Assembly (NCBI RefSeq): GCF_009646335.1
Contig: NZ_WJBU01000014.1
Location: 62,001-126,000 of the forward strand
From: Caenimonas koreensis DSM 17982
Lineage (GTDB): Bacteria; Pseudomonadota; Gammaproteobacteria; Burkholderiales; Burkholderiaceae_C
DNA: 64,000 nucleotides
Reading direction: 5' to 3'
Each line of letters opens with the position of its first letter. Position 1 is the first letter of the stretch. Of this stretch, positions 45,377-59,621 are shown in pieces. A program made the position numbers and the translations under genes. The notes under the pieces were generated by a model. It was given only the letters and a program-made list of their open reading frames with translations, did no database searches and had not been told where the DNA came from.

Positions 45377-48340
45377 ATGACCAAGACGTTAGTTATTGCA
45401 GAGAAACCATCGGTGGCGCAGGACATCGTCCGCGCCCTTGCGCCTGTTGCGGGCAAGTTCGACAAACACGACGAATACTTCGAGAGCGAGAAGTACGTTG
45501 TCACGAGTGCCGTGGGCCACCTCGTGGAGATCCAGGCGCCGGAGGAATTCGACGTCAAGCGCGGCAAGTGGAGCTTTGCCAACCTGCCCGTGATACCGCC
45601 GTACTTCGACCTGAAGCCGGTGGACAAGACCAAATCGCGCCTGAACGCCGTGATCAAGCTTGCCAAGCGCAAGGACGTCACGAGCATCATCAACGCATGC
45701 GACGCGGGCCGTGAAGGCGAGCTGATCTTCCGGCTGATCGAGCAGTTCGCGGGCTCCACGCGCGCAGGCAAATTCACGCCACTGGGCAAGCCCGTGAAGC
45801 GCTTGTGGTTGCAATCGATGACGCCGCAGGCCATACGTGAAGGTTTCGAGCAGTTGCGCTCCGACAAGCAAATGTCGGGCCTTGCCGATGCGGCGCGCTC
45901 GCGCTCGGAGGCCGACTGGCTGGTCGGCATCAACGGCACGCGCGCCATGACGGCGTTCAATTCGCGCGACGGCGGCTTCTTCCTGACCACCGTGGGCCGC
46001 GTGCAAACGCCAACGCTCGCCGTGGTGGTCGAGCGTGAAGAGCAGATTCGCAAGTTCGTCAGCCGCGACTACTGGGAAATCCACGCAACATTCCTGGCCG
46101 AGGCCGGCGAGTACCAGGCCAAGTGGTTCGACACAAAGTGGAAGAAGAACGCCGACGACGCTGAGCAGCGCGCCGACCGCCTCTGGAACGAGCGCGATGC
46201 GCTGGCCATCGCCGATGCGGTGCGCGGCAAGGCAGCGACCGTCACTGAAGAATCGAAGCCGACGACGCAAGCCTCGCCGATGCTGTTCGACTTGACCTCG
46301 CTGCAGCGCGAGGCCAACGGCCGCTTCGGCTTCTCTGCGAAGACCACGCTCGCGCTCGCGCAGAGCCTGTATGAGCGCCACAAGGCATTGACCTACCCGC
46401 GTACCGATTCGCGCCACCTGCCCGAAGACTATGTGGCCGTCGCGAAGAAGACGATGGAGACGCTGGCCACCAGCGGCATGAAGCACCTGGAGCCGTTTGC
46501 GAAGCAGGCGGTGAAAGAAAACTACGTCAAGCCAAGCAAGCGCATCTTCGACAACAGCAAGGTGTCGGATCACTTCGCGATCATCCCCACACTGCAGGCA
46601 CCCACCGGCCTCTCGGATGCCGAGCAGCGGCTGTACGACCTGGTCGTCAAACGCTTTCTCTCGGTGTTCTTCCCCAGCGCCGAATTCATGGTCACCACGC
46701 GCATCACGCAGGCGGTTGGCCACAGCTTCATGACATCGGGCAAGGTGCTCGTCAAGCCGGGCTGGCTCGCCATCTGGGGCAAGGAAGCCGAAAGCGAGAA
46801 GACGGCGGACGAAGACAGCAAGACGCTCGTTGCCGTCAAGCCCGGCGAGATGGTGCGCGCCGAAGTTGTCGAAGCGCGCGGCCTGAAAACGCGGCCGCCC
46901 GCACGCTACTCCGAAGCGACGCTGCTCGGCGCGATGGAAGGCGCGGGCAAGATGGTCGAAGACGACGAACTGCGTGAGGCCATGCAGGAAAAAGGCCTGG
47001 GCACACCGGCCACACGCGCCGCGACCATCGAAGGCCTGATCAACGAGAAGTACATGTTCCGCGAAGGCCGCGAGCTCATCCCCACGGCCAAAGCATTCCA
47101 GCTGATGACGCTGCTGCGCGGCCTGGGCGTCGAAGAGCTTTCCAAGCCCGCGCTCACCGGCGAGTGGGAATACAAACTCTCGCAGATGGAGCACGGCAAG
47201 CTCTCGCGCGATGCGTTCATGCTCGAGATCGCAGAGATGACGAAGCACATCGTCAAGAAGGCCAAGGAATACGACCGCGACACGGTGCCCGGCGACTACG
47301 TGACGCTCGGCACGCCGTGCCCGAATTGCGGCGGCATCGTCAAGGAAAACTACCGCCGCTACACCTGCACCGGCAAGTCCGGCACGGGCGAAGACGCATG
47401 CGGCTTCTCGTTCGGCAAGACGCCTGCGGGCCGCACATTCGAGATTGCTGAAGTCGAGCAACTGCTGCGCGACAAGCAAGTCGGCCCGCTCGAAGGCTTC
47501 CGCTCCAAGGCAGGCTGGCCGTTCACGTCGGAAATCATTTTGAAGTTCAGCGACGAAGACAAGAACTGGAAACTTGAATTCGATTTCGGCGATGAGCAAG
47601 ACCCGGCCGAGACAGGCGAGCTGATCGACTTCTCTGCGCAGGAGTCCCTTGGCGCGTGCCCGAAGTGCGGCGCACGCGTTTTCGAATTCGGCAAGAACTA
47701 CGTCTGCGAAAAATCAGTGCCGACGGCTGCGCAGGCCACACCCAGCTGCGACTTCAAGACGGGCCAGGTCATCTTGCAGCAACCCGTAGCACGCGAGCAG
47801 ATGCAAAAGCTGCTGGCCACCGGCAAGACCGACCTGCTCGACAAGTTCGTGTCGATGCGCACGCGCCGCGCCTTCAAGGCCTTCCTGGCCTACAACAAGG
47901 ACGAAGGCAAAGTGACGTTCGAGTTCGAGCCGCGCACGAGCAAATTTCCGCCACGCAAAACGGCTGCTGGCAAAATGCCGGCGGCCAAAGTACCGGCAGC
48001 AAAATCCGCCGCCGGAAAAACAACCGCGAAACCCGCATCCAAGAAAGCATCTGTGAACCAAGCTGTACCCGCTAAAAAAGCCGCCGCACCCAAAGCCGCC
48101 AAAACGCCGAAGCCCGGCAACCTCGTGCCCAGCACCGAACTCGCCGCCGTGATCGGCACCGGCCCCTACGCCCGCACTGAAGTCATCAAGCTGCTGTGGG
48201 ACTACATCAAGGCCAACGGCCTGCAGGACACGAAGGACAAGCGCTCAATCAACGCCGATGCCAAGCTGCTGCCCATCTTCGGCAAGCCGCAAGTCACGAT
48301 GTTCGAGCTGGCGAAGGTGGTTGGCCCCCACCTGAAGTGA
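45377..48340 (+). CDS. topB: DNA topoisomerase III with lysine-rich linker and C-terminal SWIB domain
   Basis: The 987-residue product has the Toprim domain at the start (MTKTLVIAEKPSVAQDIVRA; acidic motif NACDAGREGELIFR) and the catalytic tyrosine in ALTYPRTDSRHLP. Zinc-like repeats follow from about 640 (CPNCGG with a later CTGKSG; CPKCGARVFEFGKNYVCEKS). A Lys/Ala/Pro-rich linker (about 860-913) resembles histone H1 tails. A SWIB/MDM2 domain (914-987; LAAVIGTGPYARTEVIKLLW) ends it. The core decatenates single-stranded regions. E. coli TopB is about 650 residues, so some 330 residues are added. ATG 45377 matches the conserved start. Confidence 0.95.
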   Translation: MTKTLVIAEKPSVAQDIVRALAPVAGKFDKHDEYFESEKYVVTSAVGHLVEIQAPEEFDVKRGKWSFANLPVIPPYFDLKPVDKTKSRLNAVIKLAKRKDVTSIINACDAGREGELIFRLIEQFAGSTRAGKFTPLGKPVKRLWLQSMTPQAIREGFEQLRSDKQMSGLADAARSRSEADWLVGINGTRAMTAFNSRDGGFFLTTVGRVQTPTLAVVVEREEQIRKFVSRDYWEIHATFLAEAGEYQAKWFDTKWKKNADDAEQRADRLWNERDALAIADAVRGKAATVTEESKPTTQASPMLFDLTSLQREANGRFGFSAKTTLALAQSLYERHKALTYPRTDSRHLPEDYVAVAKKTMETLATSGMKHLEPFAKQAVKENYVKPSKRIFDNSKVSDHFAIIPTLQAPTGLSDAEQRLYDLVVKRFLSVFFPSAEFMVTTRITQAVGHSFMTSGKVLVKPGWLAIWGKEAESEKTADEDSKTLVAVKPGEMVRAEVVEARGLKTRPPARYSEATLLGAMEGAGKMVEDDELREAMQEKGLGTPATRAATIEGLINEKYMFREGRELIPTAKAFQLMTLLRGLGVEELSKPALTGEWEYKLSQMEHGKLSRDAFMLEIAEMTKHIVKKAKEYDRDTVPGDYVTLGTPCPNCGGIVKENYRRYTCTGKSGTGEDACGFSFGKTPAGRTFEIAEVEQLLRDKQVGPLEGFRSKAGWPFTSEIILKFSDEDKNWKLEFDFGDEQDPAETGELIDFSAQESLGACPKCGARVFEFGKNYVCEKSVPTAAQATPSCDFKTGQVILQQPVAREQMQKLLATGKTDLLDKFVSMRTRRAFKAFLAYNKDEGKVTFEFEPRTSKFPPRKTAAGKMPAAKVPAAKSAAGKTTAKPASKKASVNQAVPAKKAAAPKAAKTPKPGNLVPSTELAAVIGTGPYARTEVIKLLWDYIKANGLQDTKDKRSINADAKLLPIFGKPQVTMFELAKVVGPHLK

Positions 48341-48350
48341 TCTGAGCTGA

Positions 48351-49580
48351 TCACGCCACGGGGTCCGGCAAACGCCGCAACCCCGTGAGGCTTGAGGCGA
48401 AGATCGCCCAGGCCTGCAACGCGAAACCCGCCAGCGCGAGCCACAGGCACGCTGGCTCACCCCACGTAGCACCGACGAAGCCGCCTAGCGCGGCGCCGAT
48501 CGGTCGCGCGCCTGCGTTTGCCGCGAGAAACACCGACGACACACGGCCCAGCATCGCCGACGGCACCACGCTCTGGCGCAGCGTTGTGGACGTGATCGTC
48601 CAGATGATTGGCCCTGCGCCGAACAAGAAGAACGACGCAGCCGCGAGCACGCCTGTCGGCATGAACAGCGTCGCCACCATCACGGCAGCAGCCAGCACCG
48701 ACATGGCCGGCCCGAACTGGATGGCGCGGCCGAACGGCATTGCGCCGACGATGCGCGTGGCACTCAGCGCGCCGAGCACCATGCCTGCGCCATAGCAAGC
48801 CAGCGTGACACCAACGGCCTGCGCGCTCAAGCCCAGCGCACGCACCGCATAGGGCACATAGGCAGCCTGCAACACGAACCACGAGATGTTCCACGCAATG
48901 CCCGTGAGCATCATGGGCCGCAGGAACTGCTGGCGCCACACGAATCGCGCGCCATCGCGAATTTCCAGCAGCGGATGTCGCGGCGCCGCAGCGGGCCGCG
49001 ACGGCTCCACCAGCCGCCACAGCAACGCAACCGCCGCTGCAGACAACACGCTAGCGAGCACGAACGCCGCAGGCGCACCCGCCCATGCAACCAGCGCACC
49101 CGCCAGCGCAGGCCCGCCTGCATACGCTGCGCTGCGCGCGAGTTCGAGCCGCCCATTGGCGCGCGCGAACAATTCGCGTGGCACGAGCGCCGGTACGAGA
49201 GCTGGCGCAGCCACGCTGAAGCCAACAGTGCCGATCGCGCCGATGAACCCCAAGATCGCCAGACCCGTGATCGACAGCGCGCCCGTCACCACCATCGCGA
49301 GCAACGCAAAGAGCGACAGCGCGCGCAGGCATTCTGCCAGCAGCATCAGCTTGCGACGCGGCATGCGGTCTGCCGCCAGCCCGAGTGGTATCGACAGCAA
49401 CAGGAAGGGCAGTGTCTGCACCGCAGCGAGCGTGCCGATCTCGCCGGGGCCGGCACCCAGCGCCAGCACAGCGACGATGGGCACGGCGGCCAGGCTCAAT
49501 TGCTCGGCGGACTGTGCGGCGAGGTTCGACCAGGCCAGGGCGATGAAAGGACGCGGAAATTGATTGGTCATCTGGTTCAT
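48351..49580 (-). CDS. MFS transporter
   Basis: The product of about 409 residues has 12 predicted membrane helices. The loop 2-3 motif A region reads GLAADRMPRRKLMLLAECLR, and the duplicated half has AGMVLGALSATRIVGAMPFG. It belongs to the EntS/drug-efflux-like MFS group, and the substrate is unknown. Several ATG codons (49571, 49580, 49595) are in frame with no decisive ribosome-binding site. I give the middle one; the protein core is unaffected. It ends 10 bp from topB, convergently. Confidence 0.82.
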   Translation of the reverse strand: MNQMTNQFPRPFIALAWSNLAAQSAEQLSLAAVPIVAVLALGAGPGEIGTLAAVQTLPFLLLSIPLGLAADRMPRRKLMLLAECLRALSLFALLAMVVTGALSITGLAILGFIGAIGTVGFSVAAPALVPALVPRELFARANGRLELARSAAYAGGPALAGALVAWAGAPAAFVLASVLSAAAVALLWRLVEPSRPAAAPRHPLLEIRDGARFVWRQQFLRPMMLTGIAWNISWFVLQAAYVPYAVRALGLSAQAVGVTLACYGAGMVLGALSATRIVGAMPFGRAIQFGPAMSVLAAAVMVATLFMPTGVLAAASFFLFGAGPIIWTITSTTLRQSVVPSAMLGRVSSVFLAANAGARPIGAALGGFVGATWGEPACLWLALAGFALQAWAIFASSLTGLRRLPDPVA

Positions 49581-49717
49581 TGAAAGCAACGCCATGGTGC
49601 CTGTACCCGCCGCACCACGCTGGCCATTTTCGGACGCGCCTTTTCGGCCAGCGCTTGCGTCCATCTTCGCCATAATGATTTCGCGCCCGACTCGCCGGGC
49701 GACCAGGAGTAGAGACG

Positions 49718-50356
49718 ATGGCTGCAAGAGTGATCTGCCTGTCCCGCGCGCTGAGCGCAGGCGCCGACGAAGTCGCCGCGCTCGTAGGCCAGGAACTGGG
49801 CTTTCGCTGCGTCGATGAAGAGATCATTGCGCGCGCCGCCGAACGCCAGAACCTCGACCCGGAAGAAGTCGCCAACGCAGAGCGGCGCAAGTCATTCCTC
49901 GCGCGCCTCTTCGAAGACGTCGCGCTCGGTGCAGGCATGGCCGGCTACGGCAGCGGCTACGTGACCGACCCTGGCGTGATGCCGCCGCGCAGCGAGCGTT
50001 TGCGCAGCCTCATTCGCGAAGCGATTGTCGAGACAGCGGAGCAGGGCAACGTCGTGATCGTGGCGCATGCCGCCTCATACGCATTGGGCGGGCGCGACGA
50101 TGTGTTGCGCGTGCTGGTTACCGGCTCACCGCACATCCGCGCCAAACGCCTTGCTGATGCAGGCACACACACGCATGACGCAGCCGCCGAAGAAATCCGC
50201 CAGAGCGATGCAGCGCGGGCTGACTACCTCAAGCGCTTCTACGAGGTCGATCGCGAGTCGCCTGAGCACTACGACATCTCGATCTCGACCGATGCGCTCA
50301 CGCCCGCGCAGGCGGCAGCGGCCATCGTGAGTTTTGCGCGGTCATTGCGCGCGTAG
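49718..50356 (+). CDS. Cytidylate-kinase-like protein (Cytidylate_kin2 family)
   Basis: The 212-residue protein resembles P-loop cytidylate kinases of family PF13189: VICLSRALSAGADEVAALVG at the N-terminus, FRCVDEEIIARAAERQNLDP, VIVAHAASYALGGRDDVLRV and VTGSPHIRAKRLAD. The Walker A GxxxxGK is weak (SRALSAGADEVA), so kinase activity is uncertain. Its 3' end overlaps the convergent hydrolase by 15 bp. No operon partner is obvious. Confidence 0.75.
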   Translation: MAARVICLSRALSAGADEVAALVGQELGFRCVDEEIIARAAERQNLDPEEVANAERRKSFLARLFEDVALGAGMAGYGSGYVTDPGVMPPRSERLRSLIREAIVETAEQGNVVIVAHAASYALGGRDDVLRVLVTGSPHIRAKRLADAGTHTHDAAAEEIRQSDAARADYLKRFYEVDRESPEHYDISISTDALTPAQAAAAIVSFARSLRA

Positions 50357-51328
50357 CGCGGCCAGCTGCGCGGGCTGCGGCATGAGAAAGCGCCGCACGG
50401 CTCCTACGGTTCCCACGGGGTCTTCCTCCTGGGGCAGATGGCCCAGCTCCTCAAACATCACCAGCTGCGAACCTGCAATTGCTCGCGCGAAACGCTGCGC
50501 ACATTCGGGCGGCACGACGCGATCTTTGCCGCCCCACAGAATCAATGTCGGAACGTGAATGTCCTTGAGGCGGGCGACGTCACCGGTGTAGCCCTGCTCA
50601 ATGCGGCGCACAAGCGCCTGACGATTCCCCGCGCGCAAGGCCATGGCCTCATACAGGTCCACCAAAGCCGGCGTGACCCTGGAAGGATCCCCGTAGACAT
50701 CTTTCAGGCTGCGCTCGACCACGGCCCGCGGCAATGTGTATTGCGACACAAAGCGCAGGACGGGCGTTGCCGCAAGCCGGAAGCCAAGCGGTGTCGTTTG
50801 TACCGCCTTGAACGACTCTGGCGCAAACCCACTGGCGTCCACCAGAATCAAGCCGTCCACACGCCCGGGCATTGCCAGTGCCACTGACCATGCAACCTGG
50901 CCACCGAGGGAATTGCCGCCAATCACAAAGCGATTCACGGCGAGCTTGTCCATTGCCGCGCGCACGAACACGACGTAGGCCTCAGCCGAGTAATCGTTGG
51001 CGGCGCTGGGCCCCGTGAGCCCGAACCCCGGCAAGTCGATGCGGATGACGCGGCGGTTCGTACCAAGCGCTTCGACCCAACCCTGCCACGTGTGCAAGCT
51101 GGCTGACGTGCCGTGGAGCAGAACAATGGGCGATGGGTCATCGCGCTGGCCTTCATCGCGCAGGTGCACTTGCAGGCCATTGACATCCATGAACTGGGAC
51201 GGCGCCTGTGCCCATCGCGCCTTAAGCTCGTCCAGCGGCCGGTCAGGCGTCCAGGCCATCCAACAGATCGCTCCCAGCAAAAGCAGCAGGGCAGCGGCAG
51301 CCAAAAGCCGATGTATGGGTCGCGTCAT
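50342..51328 (-). CDS. Membrane-anchored alpha/beta hydrolase
   Basis: The 328-residue protein has an N-terminal anchor (HRLLAAAALLLLLGAICWMA) and a complete alpha/beta hydrolase triad: nucleophile Ser in IGGNSLGGQVAW, Asp in LWGGKDRVVPPE and His in FEELGHLPQEEDP. The oxyanion HG is in VLLHGTSAS. It is the third gene of a coupled operon after the acyltransferase and the ThiF-nitroreductase fusion (ATGA overlap). That suggests it hydrolyses or transfers an acyl group of their product in the periplasm or at the membrane; the substrate is unknown. Confidence 0.85.
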   Translation of the reverse strand: MTRPIHRLLAAAALLLLLGAICWMAWTPDRPLDELKARWAQAPSQFMDVNGLQVHLRDEGQRDDPSPIVLLHGTSASLHTWQGWVEALGTNRRVIRIDLPGFGLTGPSAANDYSAEAYVVFVRAAMDKLAVNRFVIGGNSLGGQVAWSVALAMPGRVDGLILVDASGFAPESFKAVQTTPLGFRLAATPVLRFVSQYTLPRAVVERSLKDVYGDPSRVTPALVDLYEAMALRAGNRQALVRRIEQGYTGDVARLKDIHVPTLILWGGKDRVVPPECAQRFARAIAGSQLVMFEELGHLPQEEDPVGTVGAVRRFLMPQPAQLAALRAQ

Positions 51329-53382
51329 GCTTGAGCCCCGCCCTCAGCACGCCCAACGATCAGGTCATTGAGCGCAAGGCGGTGCGAGCGGCTCTCGCAA
51401 AGGGTGGAGCGCGGCCGGCCAAGGCGGCCCATGAACACAAGCGTTTCGACCGGAGCGCCTGTGACCTCTTGCACTCGCTCGCCAAGCCGGGCCGCCTTTC
51501 CAATCAGACTGCGCGATCGAGTAAACGGCGTGCCCGCGCGCCCGTAGGTGGCGAATGCCAGCGGGGCAACACTGGGCTGCATGGCGAGCCCCAGACTCGT
51601 GGCGGTCAACCAGAAGCGCTGAATGCGCTCACCAGCGCGCAGCAATTCTTCGATCGAAGGCGTGGTCGTAGCACCGCTGCGCCGGCCAATGGTGAAGTGG
51701 CCTGCACACGAGAGCCCCGGCACCATATCGAGTTCGAGCTGAGCCAGACCAGTGCCGCCACCAAAACGGTTCATGAAATCGACTCGCGACCAGGACGCCA
51801 TGGCCCAACGCATGATCGTGGCAGTCACTTTGTTGACGCCAATGGCGGTGCTCGGCATGCCATACAGGCTGAACCGGCGCTCCCAGTCAATGACCCGGCG
51901 ATGCACTTCGTACGCCTCAGGAGCACGCAGGCGGATGTCGGTTGCTCGTGCGCCAAGCCGGGCAACAGCCCAGCGGCCCTGCCAGCTTTCGAAGAAGGTG
52001 AGCTTGAGCTCGGGCCCCAGTGCTTGCTCCAACGCTGCTTTATGGCGCTCGTTCAGCGCGTCGCGACGATAGGGCGTTCGGTCCACCGACCTGACTTTGA
52101 GGAACCCCAGCAAGGGGTCCGCACGCACAGAAGCATCCTGCGGCAAATGCACATCGAGTTCAAGCTGTAGCGGGCCTGCGCCGCCGGTCTGCGCACGTGT
52201 GCAGCTCCAGGTCATGCCCCGCCCAAACGCACTTGCAGCAATCCTCAGCGATTCCAGCAGAAAGCCTGCGCCAAGCACGACAGCCTGGCCGTTGTTGTAT
52301 TCGTAGATGTTGCCCACCTCTGACTCAATGAGCACCGTGACCCGGTCATCGCTCTCGATGCGGAAACGCCATGGTTGGCTGTTGTCTCCGCTCGGCGCCC
52401 ACCTGGCCAGAGCGAGGATGGCCTCGATTTCCGAATGCGTGGACACAGCTCGATCTGAACTTCCCCGCACTGCCTCGCGAGGCAGCGCACGCATGGCAGA
52501 CAGGCCGATCATCTGGCGTAGCCTTTGAAGTGGATTGCGCGCCCCGCCGCGCAGCTTGCCCTTCACCCAGGCCCCTCGGTATGCGTCAAACTGGTGATAC
52601 CAGGGCGCTGCGTGGACACCACCGCGCCCCAGAAGGATTCGCAGCACCTCAACGCCAATCACACCCGCACACATCTGGCACGCCATGCCGGTGGAAGGGG
52701 TGCGCTTGCCCACAAGATCAACGCGGCTGCGGTCAGCGAGATACGTGCGATGCAGCCCCTTAGGTGCGAGACCCACGAGGAAGTTGACGTACTGCTGCTC
52801 GATGGGCCGCCCGTTCAGGCCGAAATATTGCTCGAACGTCATACCCCCAGGCATGAAGACAAGATAGGCCGCGCCCATCCCGATTGGCGCAGCCGTCACA
52901 GCGGGAATGCCGAGTTCCGCGCAGCGGGCAAACACCCGGGCACGCATGTCAAGCACGAAGAAGTCGAACCCATCGACAAAGAGATCCACGCCGTCGAGGA
53001 ACTCGTCGATGTTTTCCTGCGTGACGCCTTGCTCGAAGCGTCGAATCTGCGCGGTGGGGTTGATGTCAAGCGCCATGTCGGCCATGACCTCCACCTTCGG
53101 TCGGCCCTGCGACGATGTACTCGCACCAGCTTGCCTGTTGGTATTGACGGTATCAAACACGTCCATGTCGGCGACGTGAAACTTGCCAATGCCCAGCCGC
53201 GTGAGCGCAAGCAAATGCGCCCCGCCAACGCCGCCCATGCCCGCGATGGCCACGCGCTTCGATCGCAGCATCTGCTGCTCCCACTCGGTGACCCATCCGA
53301 GGTTGCGGCTGAACGCTTCGTCATAGTCAAAGCCTGTGGCGCGCGAGACCGCCAGCGCTTCAACGGGTGGATTGCGGCTCAT
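51325..53382 (-). CDS. ThiF-type (E1-like) adenylyltransferase fused to a nitroreductase domain
   Basis: The 685-residue protein has an N-terminal ThiF/MoeB/HesA-type domain (about 20-290), with VAIAGMGGVGGAHLLALTRL and GKFHVADMDVFDTVNTNRQ for ATP binding and CQMCAGVIGVEVLRILLGRG near its end. A nitroreductase-like FMN domain (about 325-660) follows, with ILALARWAPSGDNSQPWRFR, YEYNNGQAVVLGAGFLLESL and LGLAMQPSVAP. The same fusion is known from mycobacterial Rv1355c-like proteins of unknown function. It could adenylate a carboxylate, then oxidise or reduce it. ATG 53380-53382 and the stop both lie in 4-bp overlaps with its neighbours. Confidence 0.88.
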   Translation of the reverse strand: MSRNPPVEALAVSRATGFDYDEAFSRNLGWVTEWEQQMLRSKRVAIAGMGGVGGAHLLALTRLGIGKFHVADMDVFDTVNTNRQAGASTSSQGRPKVEVMADMALDINPTAQIRRFEQGVTQENIDEFLDGVDLFVDGFDFFVLDMRARVFARCAELGIPAVTAAPIGMGAAYLVFMPGGMTFEQYFGLNGRPIEQQYVNFLVGLAPKGLHRTYLADRSRVDLVGKRTPSTGMACQMCAGVIGVEVLRILLGRGGVHAAPWYHQFDAYRGAWVKGKLRGGARNPLQRLRQMIGLSAMRALPREAVRGSSDRAVSTHSEIEAILALARWAPSGDNSQPWRFRIESDDRVTVLIESEVGNIYEYNNGQAVVLGAGFLLESLRIAASAFGRGMTWSCTRAQTGGAGPLQLELDVHLPQDASVRADPLLGFLKVRSVDRTPYRRDALNERHKAALEQALGPELKLTFFESWQGRWAVARLGARATDIRLRAPEAYEVHRRVIDWERRFSLYGMPSTAIGVNKVTATIMRWAMASWSRVDFMNRFGGGTGLAQLELDMVPGLSCAGHFTIGRRSGATTTPSIEELLRAGERIQRFWLTATSLGLAMQPSVAPLAFATYGRAGTPFTRSRSLIGKAARLGERVQEVTGAPVETLVFMGRLGRPRSTLCESRSHRLALNDLIVGRAEGGAQA

Positions 53383-54242
53383 GCGCCGGCACTCGCAGCG
53401 ACGCTGCTGGGCGACCGCAAGGCACCACCTGTGGACTCGCCGGGCACCAGCGGGTTGGGCCAAATCCTCCCGTGGTCCGTCAGGAACTCCCACACGTCGG
53501 GCCGCTGAGCCTGCACGCCACTTAGCAAAGTGGTGATATCTGCCCAACAAGGCTGCCGCAGCCCGTGGTGTTCGACAAGCCCGCCCAACCGATTGAAGTG
53601 GACGCCGAAGCGCGACAAATGACGCAGCAGGGCTGGCTCCATCACCGCAACGACATGGGTCATACCTTCCTGCGCGGGCATTTCTATCGAGGCTCTGATA
53701 AGTGCGAGCGGCAGGCAAAGAAGCGTCGTGCGCCATTCCTCTGGCGACAGGTCAGCCTCCGGCCCCTGGGTCGGCGTGTGGTGCCGAATACTCTTGACGA
53801 CCGCAAAGCGCGAGACCTCACAGGTGGTCTCAATTGGGAACGGCACAGCCTCACCGCGCCCCAGCGATGGCACCAGCGTCTCGATCGGAAGCAGGCGGCG
53901 GCGCCCCCCGCCTTGTGGCAACACAATGCGCACGGTGCCAATCGGGTTGCCCGTCGAACGGTGAGTCAGCACCGAATGAACAGCATGCTCGTCGTAGGTG
54001 TCCGTTTCAAACCCGTCGGCGTGCTCGGTGGGATCTTCGAAGTGGTTGTCAACGCAGTAAGCCTGGAACCGCACCCGATGACACGCCAGGCGCTGGCGCA
54101 AGCCGCGCGCCACCGAGCAATCGAAGACGTCGTCGAAGTGTTCGAGACCCGTACTCGCCGTAGGCAAAGGATTCGAGGGAAGAACGCCCGCAACATTTGT
54201 GTGAGCTCGCGCTTGCGCCAGTATCAAGTCCGTGTGAGTCAT
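53379..54242 (-). CDS. N-acyltransferase of the PEP-CTERM/exosortase-associated, autoinducer-synthase-like family
   Basis: The 287-residue protein resembles the TIGR03694-type acyltransferases related to LuxI autoinducer synthases. VFDCSVARGLRQRLACHRVR with FQAYCVDNHFE is followed by ETDTYDEHAVHSVLTHRSTG, NPIGTVRIVLPQGGG and TCEVSRFAVVKSIRHH. That fold transfers acyl groups from acyl-ACP or acyl-CoA to an amine. No exosortase or PEP-CTERM protein is in the window. ATG 54240-54242 has an AGGAG site. It heads an operon with the ThiF-nitroreductase fusion and the hydrolase. Confidence 0.82.
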   Translation of the reverse strand: MTHTDLILAQARAHTNVAGVLPSNPLPTASTGLEHFDDVFDCSVARGLRQRLACHRVRFQAYCVDNHFEDPTEHADGFETDTYDEHAVHSVLTHRSTGNPIGTVRIVLPQGGGRRRLLPIETLVPSLGRGEAVPFPIETTCEVSRFAVVKSIRHHTPTQGPEADLSPEEWRTTLLCLPLALIRASIEMPAQEGMTHVVAVMEPALLRHLSRFGVHFNRLGGLVEHHGLRQPCWADITTLLSGVQAQRPDVWEFLTDHGRIWPNPLVPGESTGGALRSPSSVAASAGA

Positions 54243-54335
54243 TGCCTGCTCCTGTGTTACGAGGGTGGGTAACTCAGCCATGCAAGCTGTTGCGGCCAGT
54301 CAAAGTCGCGAGACGTTCATCTGGAGGCGAGTTAA

Positions 54336-54383
54336 GACTATTCACTACTGCGTCTATTCATTGCTACGTCTATTCACTACGAC
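54336..54383. repeat. Three tandem 16-bp iterons between the acyltransferase and ybhB-like genes
   Basis: Three units start at 54336, 54352 and 54368: GACTATTCACTACTGC, GTCTATTCATTGCTAC and GTCTATTCACTACGAC. All share CTATTCA at the same phase, with a strict 16-bp period. They lie 94 bp from the acyltransferase ATG and 90 bp from the ybhB-like ATG, in the middle of a divergent promoter region. They look like direct-repeat binding sites for a regulator. Confidence 0.7.
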
Positions 54384-54472
54384 GCCCGCAGCCGGGCTTT
54401 ATGAACGCCGCGATGACATCGCCGGGTCTTCGTAGCATCATCCGAAGCCTTGTTCCAACCGAGGAGACATCC

Positions 54473-55027
54473 ATGAAGACAACCTTGCTCGCAGCGGCGC
54501 TCACCGGCGCCGTCACGCTCGCCCATTCCGCCGGCTTCACGCTCGAGAGCCCGGACATCAAAGCCAATTCGATGATCGACAAGAAGTTCGAAGCGAACGT
54601 GTTCGGCTGCACCGGCGAGAACAAGTCGCCGGCCCTGAAGTGGAGCGGCGCGCCGAAAGACACGAAGAGTTTTGCCGTCACGGTGTACGACCCTGACGCG
54701 CCTACCGGTTCAGGCTTCTGGCACTGGTTCGTCTACAACATCCCGGCCAGCGTGACGGAGCTGCCCGCCAATGCGGGCGCTGCCGGAGGCGCGAACTTGC
54801 CCAAGGGTGCCAGCCAGAACCGCATCGACTATGGCTTCGCAGCGTGGGGCGGCCCGTGCCCGCCACAAGGCGACAAGCCGCACCGCTACATCTTCACCGT
54901 GCACGCGCTCAAGACCGACAAGCTCGATCTCGGCGCCGACACGACAGCCGCCGTCGCTGGCTTCATGACGAACGCCAACACCATCGGCAAGGCGAGTTTC
55001 ACGGCGAAGTACGGGCGGGCGAAGTAA
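54473..55027 (+). CDS. YbhB/YbcL family Raf-kinase-inhibitor-like protein (exported)
   Basis: The 184-residue protein has a signal peptide (MKTTLLAAALTGAVTLAHSA) and the PEBP fold: GENKSPALKWSGAPKDTKSF, AVTVYDPDAPTGSGFWHWFV and YNIPASVTELPANAG, then GFAAWGGPCPPQGDKPHRYI with the ligand-pocket motif PCPPxGxxHRY. Bacterial members are widespread and their ligand is mostly unknown. ATG 54473 follows an excellent GAGGAGACATCC site. It is divergent from the acyltransferase operon and shares its iteron region. Confidence 0.92.
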   Translation: MKTTLLAAALTGAVTLAHSAGFTLESPDIKANSMIDKKFEANVFGCTGENKSPALKWSGAPKDTKSFAVTVYDPDAPTGSGFWHWFVYNIPASVTELPANAGAAGGANLPKGASQNRIDYGFAAWGGPCPPQGDKPHRYIFTVHALKTDKLDLGADTTAAVAGFMTNANTIGKASFTAKYGRAK

Positions 55028-55200
55028 GTCTGTCTTCATCGTCGGGGGCGGCAAATCGGTGTGCGTGTTTGTTGTGCTCTCGTTTGCCGGGGGTAGCAAA
55101 TCCGCGTGCGGGTGGGCTATGTCGCGCGGACGTGGCGTCCTTTCGGGCGCGCTGTCGCGCTCCCTTCAGGCAAACCTGCGCTGGCCGGGCTTGCGGCGCT

Positions 55201-55255
55201 GCGGCATAACTCGCTGCGCCTAAAGGCTCCACTCGGACAGACGCCGCAAGTCAGA
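55201..55255 (+). repeat. Left arm of a 55-bp inverted repeat
   Basis: The arm begins GCGGCATAACTCGCTGCGCC and ends with CCGCAAGTCAGA. It is the reverse complement of 55607-55661 with two mismatches. The arms enclose about 350 bp with no recognisable gene. Similar AT-poor arms with CGCAAGTCAGA occur, as I recall, in intergenic repeats of Comamonadaceae. Confidence 0.85.
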
Positions 55256-55606
55256 GTACGTCCCGCGTGGCTCGATCTGCTTGCTCGCGCAAGCACTCGT
55301 AGCCACGCTGCGCCACAAGCCCGACCATCGCAGGCACCACGCCCTGATTGCGCGCCACAGCCCACCCGCCCACGGCTTTGCAGAACAGAGCGGTTGTCGA
55401 TCAACGCGTGGATGCACGGCCGCTCTGATCACGGTGCACTCTCGTGTCGAACAACTGGTTGATCGTCCACCGCTGCGTCCACGTCACGTCAGGTGGTGCG
55501 CGGTGTTGGCCCGCAATCAGGGGCGGTGGCTGGCAGGCGGGTTGCGGCGGCGCAGCGGGGCTACAAGAAGCGCGCGCCAGCGCGCGAATTGAGTCCCGCG
55601 GCACCT

Positions 55607-55661
55607 TCTGACTCGCGGCGTCTGCCCGAGTGGAGCCTTTAGGCGCAGCGAGTTATGCCGC
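55607..55661 (-). repeat. Right arm of the 55-bp inverted repeat
   Basis: It starts TCTGACTCGCGGCGTCTGCC and ends CGAGTTATGCCGC, pairing with 55201-55255. Only two of 55 positions differ, so the arms are either recent or kept alike. Beyond 55661 the similarity continues weakly (GC-rich CTGCGGCG). Confidence 0.85.
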
Positions 55662-55690
55662 GGCGTCGCCGCAGCCCGCCTGCCAGAGAA

Positions 55691-55709
55691 GTCTGTGCGA
55701 AGCACAGAC
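55691..55709. repeat. Perfect 8-bp hairpin
   Basis: GTCTGTGC (55691-55698) pairs with GCACAGAC (55702-55709) around GAA. No T run follows on either strand, so a terminator is unlikely. It lies 30 bp outside the right arm of the 55-bp inverted repeat. Confidence 0.6.
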
Positions 55710-55789
55710 CACCGCTCCGCGGGACAGCACCGCGCGCCGCCTGGCGTGACGCACCCCGGACCGATGACAGCCAACCGATTCGCATCCAG

Positions 55790-55826
55790 CGAAATTGGAA
55801 TCTGACCCCAATTACGCCAATTACGC
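55790..55826. mobile_element. Relic end of a REP-associated (RAYT/IS200-like) element
   Basis: The stretch GAAATTGGAATCTGACCCC followed by AATTACG is, in reverse complement, the GGGGTCAGATTCCAATTTC sequence that I recall upstream of many REP-associated tyrosine transposase genes in proteobacteria. No transposase remains here. The call rests on a short motif. Confidence 0.4.
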
Positions 55827-55843
55827 GGCGCCGCTTGCCAGCG

Positions 55844-56599
55844 CTAAGTAGCCAGGCCGCCCTGGCGCGCGAGATGCACCTGGTGCAGCGTGATCTTGCG
55901 CACCTCGGCCTGGCTGGTTTCGATGTGGGCGCGCAGCAGCATCGCGGCCTGGTCGCCGCGCTGGCGCTGGATCGATTTCAGGATCTTGCCGTGCTCGTCA
56001 TACGTCGCATCGATGCGCGCCTGCTTGGTGAAGTCGAGCCGGCGAATGATGCGGATGCGGTCCGTCACGTCGCGATGCACACGCGCCATTTCGGCATTGC
56101 CCGCAGCCGCAACGAGCTTGCAGTGGAACTCCTCGTCCCATTGCGAGACCTGCACCATGTCGCCGCTGCGCTCAGCCACGGGCACGAGCCAGATCGCAAC
56201 CAGCTCTTCGAGCAGCGCGCGGTCCACATGCACGTCGTCTGAACACAGCCGGTGCGCCGCTGTCGTCTCCAGCACCATGCGCAGGTCGTAGAGCTGCTCG
56301 AATTTTTCAAAATCGAACGGCAGCACGCGCCAGCCGCTGCGGAACATCACCTCGACAAAACCCTCGTGCTGCAATCGCACCAGTGCCTGCCGGATCGGCG
56401 TGCGCGACACACCAAGCCGCTCGCTGATTTCGTTTTCAGTGAAGCGGTCGCCGGGCACGAGCTTGAATTCGGCAATGTCGCGCTTGAGCTGCGCGTACAC
56501 CTCGTCGGCGCGCGATGAACGCGCCAGCGGTGCGACGGCGGCTGCAGCACTATCGATGACGGCAGCAGCGTTGGGCTTCTTGCGGACAGGTGGGGACAC
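55844..56599 (-). CDS. GntR family (FadR/FCD) transcriptional regulator
   Basis: The 251-residue protein has an N-terminal winged helix (about 30-95) with EVYAQLKRDIAEFKLVPGDR, FTENEISERLGVSRTPIRQA and LVRLQHEGFVEVMFRSGWRV. A helical FCD effector domain (about 105-245) follows, with metal ligands in WDEEFHCKLVAAAGNAEM and YDEHGKILKSI. The start is GTG 56597-56599. It is the last gene of the minus-strand operon and so probably regulates uptake and hydrolysis of its substrate. Confidence 0.92.
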   Translation of the reverse strand: MSPPVRKKPNAAAVIDSAAAAVAPLARSSRADEVYAQLKRDIAEFKLVPGDRFTENEISERLGVSRTPIRQALVRLQHEGFVEVMFRSGWRVLPFDFEKFEQLYDLRMVLETTAAHRLCSDDVHVDRALLEELVAIWLVPVAERSGDMVQVSQWDEEFHCKLVAAAGNAEMARVHRDVTDRIRIIRRLDFTKQARIDATYDEHGKILKSIQRQRGDQAAMLLRAHIETSQAEVRKITLHQVHLARQGGLAT

Positions 56600-56612
56600 T
56601 TCGCTGACTCTA

Positions 56613-57311
56613 TCAGCGCTGCGATGTTGAGTTGCCGTGCAGGGCAGCCAGCAACTGCTCGCTCGTCGCGGTCCAGCCGACGATGGCGCCTTGCGCCCGC
56701 ATCATCTCCACGGCGCTCGCCTTGAACTGCGGAAAGTAACTCTCGGTGCAATCTTCGAGCAGCAGACTGTCGTAGCCGCGATCGTTGGCCTCGCGCATCG
56801 ACGTCTGCACGCACACTTCAGTCGTCACGCCCATGAAGAGCAAGTGCGTGATGCCGCGCTGCCGTAGCATCTCGTGCAAGCCCGTCGCATAGAACGCGCC
56901 CTTGCCCGGCTTGTCGATCACGACTTCGCCAGCCACGGGCGCCAACGCCTCGATGATCTGGTTGCCCGGCTCGCCCTTGACGAGGATGCGACCCATTGGC
57001 CCTGCGTCGCCAATGCGCAGTGTCGGGTTGCCGCGATTCAGCTTGGCGGGCGGGCAGTCGGACAGGTCGGCGTCATGCGCCTCGCGCGTGTGCACGACGA
57101 GGCCGCCCGCTTGTCGCCATGCGGCCAGCGTTCGCTGGCAGGCCGGCACGATCGCCGCGAGCAGCGACACATCGTTGCCCAGCGTCTCGCCAAACCCGCC
57201 GGGTTCGATGAAGTCGCGTTGCATGTCGATGATCACCAGCGCCGTCTTGGCGACATCGAAGGTGAACGCGAATGGATTCGCGTCAATCGACTTCAAGGTG
57301 GTGCTTGTCAT
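56613..57311 (-). CDS. Isochorismatase-fold cysteine hydrolase (first)
   Basis: The 232-residue amidohydrolase of the isochorismatase superfamily has the Asp-Lys-Cys triad: [20 protein letters not shown] (Asp), [20 protein letters not shown] (Lys) and [20 protein letters not shown] (Cys). It is close to the biuret hydrolase-like group and shares the VIDKPGKG and MREANDRGY segments with the second copy, but its N-terminus differs. The exact amide it cuts is not readable from sequence. Its ATG overlaps the ABC ATPase stop (ATGA). Confidence 0.88.
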
Positions 57312-58937: not shown

Positions 58938-59621
58938 CTATGACTCAATCGCATCCAGCACGGCCTGCGAAGTCGTGTGCGCGCCGAACACACCGCCCTG
59001 CATCGTGATCATCTTCAGCGCCGCTTCGTGATTGCCTTTGTCCGTGGCCGCCGTGCAGTCGGAAAGCAGCACGCATTCAAAGCCGCGATCATTCGCCTCA
59101 CGCATAGTCGTGTGCACACACACATCGGTCGTGATGCCTGTGAGCACGAGGTTGACGATGCCGCGTGTTCGCAAAATCAATTCAAGATCGGTCGCGCAGA
59201 ACGACCCTTTGCCCGGCTTGTCGATCACCACTTCGCCTGCCAGCGGCGCGAGGTCCGGAATGATTTCCCAGCCGGGTTCACCGCGCACCAGGATGCGGCC
59301 GCACGGCCCATCGTCGCCGATGCCGGCGCCGAGTTGCCGCGAGCGCCAGCGTTTGTTGGCAGGCAAGTCAGACAGGTCAGGCCGGTGGCCTTCGCGCGTG
59401 TGGATGATCGTGTAGCCCGCCTTGCGCATCGCGGCCATCAGCTTTTTGAGTGGCTCGATCGGTGCGCGTGTGAGCGAGATGTCGTAGCCCATCTTGTCCA
59501 CATAGCCGCCCACGCCGCAGAAGTCCGTCTGCATGTCGATGACGATGAGCGCCGTGTTCGACGGCTTCAAGTCGCCGTTGTAGGGCCACGCGTAAGGGTT
59601 GGCTTGGACGAAGCGCTCCAT
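58938..59621 (-). CDS. biuH: Isochorismatase-fold hydrolase, biuret amidohydrolase (BiuH)-like
   Basis: The 227-residue protein starts [20 protein letters not shown] and has [99 protein letters not shown] and [20 protein letters not shown]. These agree closely with biuret amidohydrolase of Rhizobium as I remember it, including the Asp-Lys-Cys triad. The reaction would be biuret to allophanate and ammonia. Related amidases cannot be excluded. It sits between the permease and ATPase genes. Confidence 0.72.

Follow-up and report, generated by a model that had tools for sequence, protein, structure and literature searches.

Bacterial N-acyl oxazolones (azlactones) are made by a pathway that combines an acyltransferase, a ThiF protein and a flavin oxidase (PMC10404671, PMC12856293). 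The first case was OxzAB of Pseudoalteromonas rubra (de Rond 2021), according to PMC10404671 and PMC12856293. TrzS, a fusion of ThiF and oxidase, uses ATP to close an N-acyl amino acid to a ring, which it desaturates in a second step with O2; acid work-up opens the oxazolone ring, and the physiological role of bacterial oxazolones has been called a major unresolved question (PMC12856293). N-acyl amino acid synthases have also been linked to PEP-CTERM/exosortase loci (Craig 2011, as cited in PMC7293339 and PMC4897644), and a PEP-CTERM gene lies inside the N-acyl tyrosine cluster of Stieleria (PMC7293339). Here we describe a three-gene locus of Caenimonas koreensis DSM 17982, found in a stretch of 64,000 nucleotides (contig NZ_WJBU01000014.1, positions 62,001 to 126,000 of the forward strand; hereafter the window), which we read as a horizontally acquired N-acyl oxazolone operon. 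The oxazolone core of this assignment is probable by analogy with described systems that have this make-up and from which we adopt the reactions and the product class.

Gene set and predicted chemistry

The features are as follows, with positions in the window.

53379-54281, minus strand: acyltransferase, putative N-acyl amino acid synthase (OxzA/TyzA/TrzA role), 300 aa, TIGR03694
51325-53382, minus strand: putative ThiF-like cyclase fused to a flavin-dependent oxidase (OxzB/TrzS role), 685 aa
52483-53382, minus strand: ThiF domain, fusion residues about 1-300 (profile matches, tree)
51328-52482, minus strand: flavin-dependent oxidase (nitroreductase-fold) domain, fusion residues about 301-685 (profile and structure matches)
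50342-51328, minus strand: membrane-anchored alpha/beta hydrolase, 328 aa, triad S140/D269/H297
54333-54380, no strand: three tandem 16-bp direct repeats 5' of the operon, possible operator (repeat scan)
49660-54419, no strand: segment missing from the orthologous site of congener G568, approximate extent (genome alignment)

All three genes, the acyltransferase, the ThiF–nitroreductase fusion and the alpha/beta hydrolase, lie on the minus strand, and at each junction neighbouring genes overlap by 4 bp (ATGA). The start ATG of the fusion is at 53382 inside GCATGAGC, and that of the hydrolase is at 51328 inside GCATGACG. Gene calls and overlaps agree with the layout given in the original prediction, which had been made from the letters of the DNA. 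The acyltransferase open reading frame (ORF) opens at 54281; an alternative ATG at 54242 is preceded by AGGAG at a distance of 6 nt and is likely the true start, in which case the protein has 287 aa. A longer fusion ORF of 803 aa (start 53736), returned by the ORF caller, begins within the acyltransferase gene.

The first gene had been placed in the exosortase-associated, LuxI-related acyltransferase family, and this placement was borne out. It matches TIGR03694 with 198.6 bits (cut-off 111.95), and R71, E92, D94, D97, R118, E155 and R158 are invariant across 27 aligned acyltransferases, window included. The best structure matches of its AF2 (AlphaFold2) model are LasI 1ro5, TofI 3p2h and FeeM 2g0b; the mean predicted local distance difference test (pLDDT) scores of the predicted acyltransferase and fusion structures are 84.5 and 84.1. 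The conserved positions and the modelled fold are of the LuxI/FeeM type.

The second gene was described correctly as a ThiF-type adenylyltransferase fused to a nitroreductase, with matches to ThiF (PF00899, 143.1 bits) and Nitroreductase (PF00881, 35.5 bits) in one 685-aa ORF. The Acg-family flavin mononucleotide (FMN) oxidoreductase model NF047509 gave 95.8 bits, under its cut-off of 199. In an alignment of 23 fused proteins (the window and 22 others), the glycine-rich loop, D74, N80/N82/R83/Q84, K96, D137 and D140 of the ThiF domain are invariant, as are P330, G332, D333, N334, Q336, W338, R339, R435, R484 and R589 of the oxidase domain; D72 differs in one row and Q602 in two. The adenylation positions are thus intact, among them D140, which stands where the D-x-x-D motif of ThiF/MoeB has its second Asp. 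The predicted structure of the fusion matches AclA, E. coli ThiF (1zfn) and the Acg homologue 2ymv, and the PDB sequences nearest to the ThiF domain are TcdA dehydratases. These dehydratases activate a small N-carbonyl amino acid by adenylation and close it to a ring. The match 2ymv is the solved oxidase nearest to TrzS (PMC12856293).

Domains, fold, gene order and intact conserved positions lend good support to reading the pair as an oxazolone synthetase. The acyltransferase would transfer a fatty acyl group from acyl-coenzyme A (acyl-CoA) or acyl carrier protein (acyl-ACP) to the nitrogen of an amino acid that is probably aromatic. The ThiF domain would adenylate the carboxylate with ATP, the amide oxygen would close the ring to a 5-oxazolone, and the flavin domain would then desaturate the Calpha-Cbeta bond with O2. 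The hydrolase, if involved, would most likely open the ring of the oxazolone partitioned into the membrane and so yield an N-acyl dehydro-amino acid (thalassotalic-acid-like), probably at the periplasmic face, either as a final step or for clearance. The amino acid, the chain length, and the substrate and topology of the hydrolase are those that we infer. That the set builds a small acylated molecule derived from an amino acid, as originally proposed, is made probable by published systems of the same make-up; the accompanying statement that no product is known has to be given up, since the same set makes N-acyl oxazolones in those systems (PMC10404671, PMC12856293).

Conservation and transfer of the acyltransferase–fusion pair

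Fusion matches were found in 40 of 369 class-level genomes at 1e-60 or better and in 30 of 200 genomes of the window's family at 1e-30, the window's genome being included both times. Within the family, a single match spanning the whole fusion was seen only in the window; in the other family genomes the ThiF and oxidase genes are separate, side by side or divergent, or ThiF alone was matched. Fused homologues were found both in Alphaproteobacteria and in the class to which the window belongs. After removal of L106 and L129, near-copies of L105 and L108, from 25 fused loci, 23 remained, and in 19 of them an acyltransferase homologue lies within 5 kb of the fused gene. A conserved co-occurrence of all three genes, on which the original prediction had been made to depend, was seen in part: it stood for the acyltransferase with the fusion in fused relatives, the two being side by side only rarely in the family, and failed for the hydrolase, present at one of 68 loci. 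Within the family, TIGR03694 over cut-off was found in 10 of 30 ThiF-bearing genomes versus 8 of 170 others (p 3e-5, kinship ignored, window's genome counted). The acyltransferase and the ThiF–oxidase thus make up a module that holds together well among fused relatives but only loosely within the window's family, and the hydrolase belongs to neither.

Several results weigh against an oxazolone operon. The fusion scores 139.8 bits against the Rv1355c model NF005901, under the cut-off of 476, and is also under the cut-offs of PRK14851 (386 vs 1170) and PRK14852 (318 vs 1337). An acyltransferase homologue is present at only 2 of the 30 unfused family ThiF loci, which were drawn from 29 genomes besides the window's (one genome gave two), and TIGR03694 over cut-off is missing from 20 of the 30 ThiF-bearing family genomes. 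As ThiF loci in the family are mostly without the acyltransferase, ThiF and oxidase can serve without it. Producers of N-acyl dehydrotyrosine have the same genes, with no oxazolone observed (PMC12479983). For the hydrolase, its rarity at related loci, described below, means that a part in the pathway has no backing from conservation.

Two features of related loci were recorded besides. At L099, L107, L108, L115, L118, L121 and L122, two acyltransferase matches lie near one ThiF gene, which may mean a mixed product range. A methyltransferase gene adjoins the fusion in G525 (L119:9623-10516) and recalls the methyltransferase of the stieleriacine clusters (PMC12479983).

The operon lies in a foreign-looking insert. 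A DNA search of 40 genus genomes, in which seven candidates per genome were scored, gave no match to the acyltransferase or the fusion outside the window's genome among the matches listed. Protein searches, which covered two other genus members for the fusion and five for the acyltransferase, agree with this result, and the best other acyltransferase match in a 399-genome family search had at most 36% identity. In congener G568 a gap of 149 bp separates the two blocks that in the window border the insert at 49547 and 54420; the corresponding distances are about 210 bp in G599 and about 770 bp in G596. Part of the 149 bp in G568 resembles the window's flank, and from this resemblance and the short gap it follows that about 4.7 kb are extra in the window, the cytidylate-kinase-like gene included. 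The segment 49660-54419 contains this gene, the hydrolase, the fusion, the acyltransferase and the repeats. The genes at the insert edges encode MFS, cytidylate kinase and PEBP proteins, none being a mobile-element gene, and no direct or inverted repeat of at least 9 nt is common to both edges. The cytidylate-kinase-like gene (PF13189, 49718-50356) converges on the hydrolase gene with a 15-bp overlap; it appears to be part of the insert, and similar DNA is present elsewhere in the window's genome and in other genus genomes.

In a tree of ThiF domains, the window groups with two Skermanella rows (Alphaproteobacteria) with an SH-aLRT support of 99 by a quick tree method. The tree was built without L039 (a row of less than 200 aa), L106, L114, L116, L117, L129 and L133, and without actinobacterial rows. 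A single clade of window and family ThiF rows was rejected (p-AU 1e-6), and the family rows themselves do not form one clade (8 changes). Since they are non-monophyletic and some branches are very long, we place weight on the support of 99 for the window with Skermanella. The GC content of the three genes (0.63-0.64) equals that of the window (0.629); at third codon positions (GC3) it is 0.71-0.73 versus 0.76-0.84 in five neighbours, a weak sign that hints at a foreign origin. From these sequence comparisons, acyltransferase and fusion look like a cassette imported from a distant lineage and decoupled from PEP-CTERM loci.

The three 16-mers sit within the insert, upstream of the operon, and to call them an operator is a plain guess. 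With up to 3 mismatches allowed, a pattern of two adjacent 16-bp copies had no further match in the genome (the search did not extend to single copies), and no counterpart of the repeats was found upstream of either Skermanella operon. For their original description as iterons no support was seen: the copies number only three, and the neighbouring genes that were scanned include no replication initiator (the contig beyond them was not annotated for such a gene). A promoter scan of 54150-54550 returned a single site, on the strand facing away from the operon, and no Rfam family in 48000-57000 was above its gathering score. An intergenic repeat at 55040-55813 recurs on contigs C39 and C42 of the window's genome with 85-87% identity and also matches itself in part, in inverted orientation. 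Further out, two isochorismatase-like genes (56613-57311, 58938-59621) stand on either side of an ABC ATPase gene, all in a single run on the minus strand, as read from the ORFs.

Other searches with the operon were made as well. The PADLOC E1-E2 matches of the fusion (best 45 bits) were read as generic ThiF similarity, and an anti-phage role was rejected; the acyltransferase and the hydrolase had no PADLOC match. None of the plasmid records carries the fusion over 80% of its length, one weak match to the oxidase part was seen, and megablast against E. coli genomes gave no match.

The coupled hydrolase

The third gene encodes, as had been predicted, a membrane-anchored alpha/beta hydrolase with a full triad. 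Its Abhydrolase_1 match is 95.3 bits, a hydrophobic helix is present at the N-terminus (19-residue mean hydropathy 2.3 from residue 8), and the triad consists of Ser140 in GNSLG, Asp269 in GGKD and His297 in GHLP. The closest PDB sequences include meta-cleavage-product hydrolases and esterases and say nothing firm on the substrate.

A set of 68 related ThiF loci, among them both near-copy pairs, some short loci and some that hold ThiF or the oxidase by itself, yielded a single hydrolase homologue, 25% identical and 8 kb away; the flanks of the compared loci are unequal in length, which makes the absences soft. Homologues 61-69% identical (62-71% over shorter alignments) are present in 8 of 39 other genus genomes. 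That in L190 adjoins minC and a MinD-like gene, and one further homologue lies on another contig of the window's own genome, beside nitrile hydratase genes. Given these homologues across the host genus, the hydrolase appears as a member of a host-genus family that became coupled to the imported pair, and is to be placed outside the conserved core.

The hydrolase may accordingly be unrelated to the pathway, a host-genus gene coupled by chance and acting on its ancestral substrate, an explanation that is compatible with an oxazolone core. We consider this evenly balanced. The homologues beside minC/MinD-like or nitrile hydratase genes and the near absence from related ThiF loci argue for chance coupling; however, the 4-bp start-stop overlap has the same form as the core junction and makes joint expression likely, and the triad is intact. 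That the hydrolase has no pathway role is more likely than any single role proposed for it. Opening of the oxazolone ring is a tentative assignment that we hold to be possible and rather doubtful. Still more speculative, and unlikely, is that the hydrolase serves as an azlactonase dedicated to the reactive oxazolone made by the two coupled enzymes, which it would open or transfer. The locus would then be a self-contained "make and break" operon for a lipid signal, used on its own for signalling or chemical defence and equipped with a means of switching itself off.

A different product would follow if the oxazolone were only fleeting and the hydrolase were the obligatory last enzyme. The operon would then make N-acyl dehydro-amino acids, surfactants or antimicrobials resembling thalassotalic or kyonggic acid. 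The producers of dehydrotyrosine acids have the same three activities, with no oxazolone observed (PMC12479983), and the hydrolase is translationally coupled to the fusion by the overlap. However, oxazolones from OxzAB, TyzACB and TrzAS are reported with no mention of a hydrolase in PMC12856293 and PMC10404671; the word itself is absent from the main texts of PMC12856293, PMC10404671 and PMC12479983. Moreover, the ring opens under acid work-up (PMC12856293), so that acids reported elsewhere may be artefacts, and related loci lack the window's hydrolase. We regard an operon dedicated to dehydro-amino acids as improbable, and retain the oxazolone as the probable product of the core.

PEP-CTERM surroundings and known systems

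Related loci often lie among genes for PEP-CTERM protein sorting. XrtA/PEP-CTERM-type genes (PrsT, export protein, chain-length determinant and neighbours, with reference genes from L041 and L042) are present in 19 of 30 family and 12 of 25 fused loci, where a single weak match to PrsT, a TPR protein (25-29%), counts as any XrtA gene; two or more are present in 16 of 30 and 8 of 25. ORFs with a PEP-CTERM end within 3 kb (PEP-only pattern) were found at 17 of 30 family and 11 of 23 fused loci, and with a looser pattern, anywhere in the locus, at 23 of 30 and 14 of 25. In 11 control loci (three from the same genome, eight from congeners) the PEP-CTERM pattern gave no match; PEP-CTERM proteins may be rare in the window's genus anyway. 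Of the 30 family genomes that bear ThiF, at least 14 carry an exosortase gene at a distance of 9-13 kb on the same contig, and exosortases occur in 26 of these 30 versus 80 of the other 170 (Fisher p 5e-5, with all exosortase types and the window's genome counted and kinship ignored). Behind the fusion of S. stibiiresistens lie both a PEP-CTERM gene and an exosortase. Since the Stieleria cluster already holds a PEP-CTERM gene, such a neighbourhood is not new in kind; a link of ThiF/nitroreductase or of oxazolones to PEP-CTERM/exosortase is not made in the available portion of PMC8776678.

In the window, the PEP-CTERM text pattern had no match, and in the window's genome (a 43-contig assembly) no PEP-CTERM profile match was over cut-off (best 13.7 bits, cut-off 20.7). 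The sole exosortase match of the genome (PF09721) lies on another contig (L034:17670-19340, 556 aa) and is the exosortase E/protease of a VPEID-CTERM system (184 bits, cut-off 150). This gene adjoins a UDP-galactopyranose mutase gene. The original prediction, which had seen no exosortase or PEP-CTERM target and had held that the exosortase family name fails to explain the operon, is upheld on both counts; as far as the 43 contigs show, no exosortase/PEP-CTERM locus elsewhere in the genome needs the acyltransferase, while relatives do sit in such loci. A function of the acyltransferase in exosortase/PEP-CTERM sorting, to which the surroundings of related genes and the printed link with synthases (Craig 2011, as cited in PMC7293339 and PMC4897644) point, is very improbable in a genome with no PEP-CTERM protein over cut-off and a single exosortase of another type on another contig. 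The family name of TIGR03694 looks like a reflection of frequent neighbourhood and not of a need, the window's operon being a decoupled case. A LuxI-type acyl-homoserine lactone (AHL) quorum-sensing synthase with accessory genes, suggested by the LuxI-like fold, the conserved positions and a weak Autoind_synth match (PF00765, 18.1 bits, cut-off 24), is scarcely credible, as this score is under its cut-off and that of TIGR03694 far higher, and we know of no role of a ThiF–oxidase in AHL synthesis.

In summary, most of what the operon shows is explained by a known type, the oxazolone operon, here in a variant that looks transferred, stands apart from PEP-CTERM loci and has one unusual gene added to it. 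A named product class stands in for a product that had been given as not known. The locus suggests that the oxazolone module can live without a neighbouring XrtA/PEP-CTERM locus, in which case the product would have a use of its own. The hydrolase is a candidate oxazolone-opening enzyme; if it is indeed an azlactonase, a pathway that in relatives is often found beside PEP-CTERM/exosortase matrix loci would have become an independent cassette.

Compared with known systems, the locus resembles OxzAB in its N-acyltransferase and ThiF–oxidase fusion, a two-gene set there, and differs in that no coupled hydrolase is mentioned for OxzAB in PMC12856293 and PMC10404671, a comparison made by description and not by sequence. 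TyzACB (tyrazolone; PMC10404671) has the same three activities, with ThiF and oxidase encoded separately there and fused in the window. The clusters for stieleriacines, thalassotalic acids and kyonggic acids (PMC12479983, PMC7293339) likewise combine an N-acyl amino acid synthase, ThiF and a nitroreductase; they differ in that the open dehydro acid is reported, the genes are separate, and no hydrolase is mentioned in PMC12479983. TrzAS (Rv1356c/Rv1355c, tryptazolone; PMC12856293) shares a fused ThiF–oxidase downstream of the acyltransferase and an Acg-like oxidase fold, whereas the window's fusion stays at 139.8 bits to the Rv1355c model, with its cut-off of 476. Oxazolone systems have a flavin-dependent oxidase of the FDO-A/Acg type, fused or adjacent; the window's oxidase is fused, and its likeness to Acg comes by way of the 2ymv model match. 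D217 of TrzS, mutated in D217A, was related to D137/D140 of the window's fusion through the motif and not by direct alignment. Judged by spacing alone, TrzS R540 and Q651 may have their counterparts in R484, present in all 23 rows, and Q602, present in 21 of them. In Skermanella stibiiresistens (L097) and S. aerolata (L098), an acyltransferase (55% and 50% identity) is followed on the same strand by the adjacent fusion (64% and 62%). There, however, a PEP-CTERM gene lies 2.1 kb (L097) or 0.5 kb (L098) downstream, with an exosortase within 10 kb in L097, and in place of these neighbours the window has the hydrolase.

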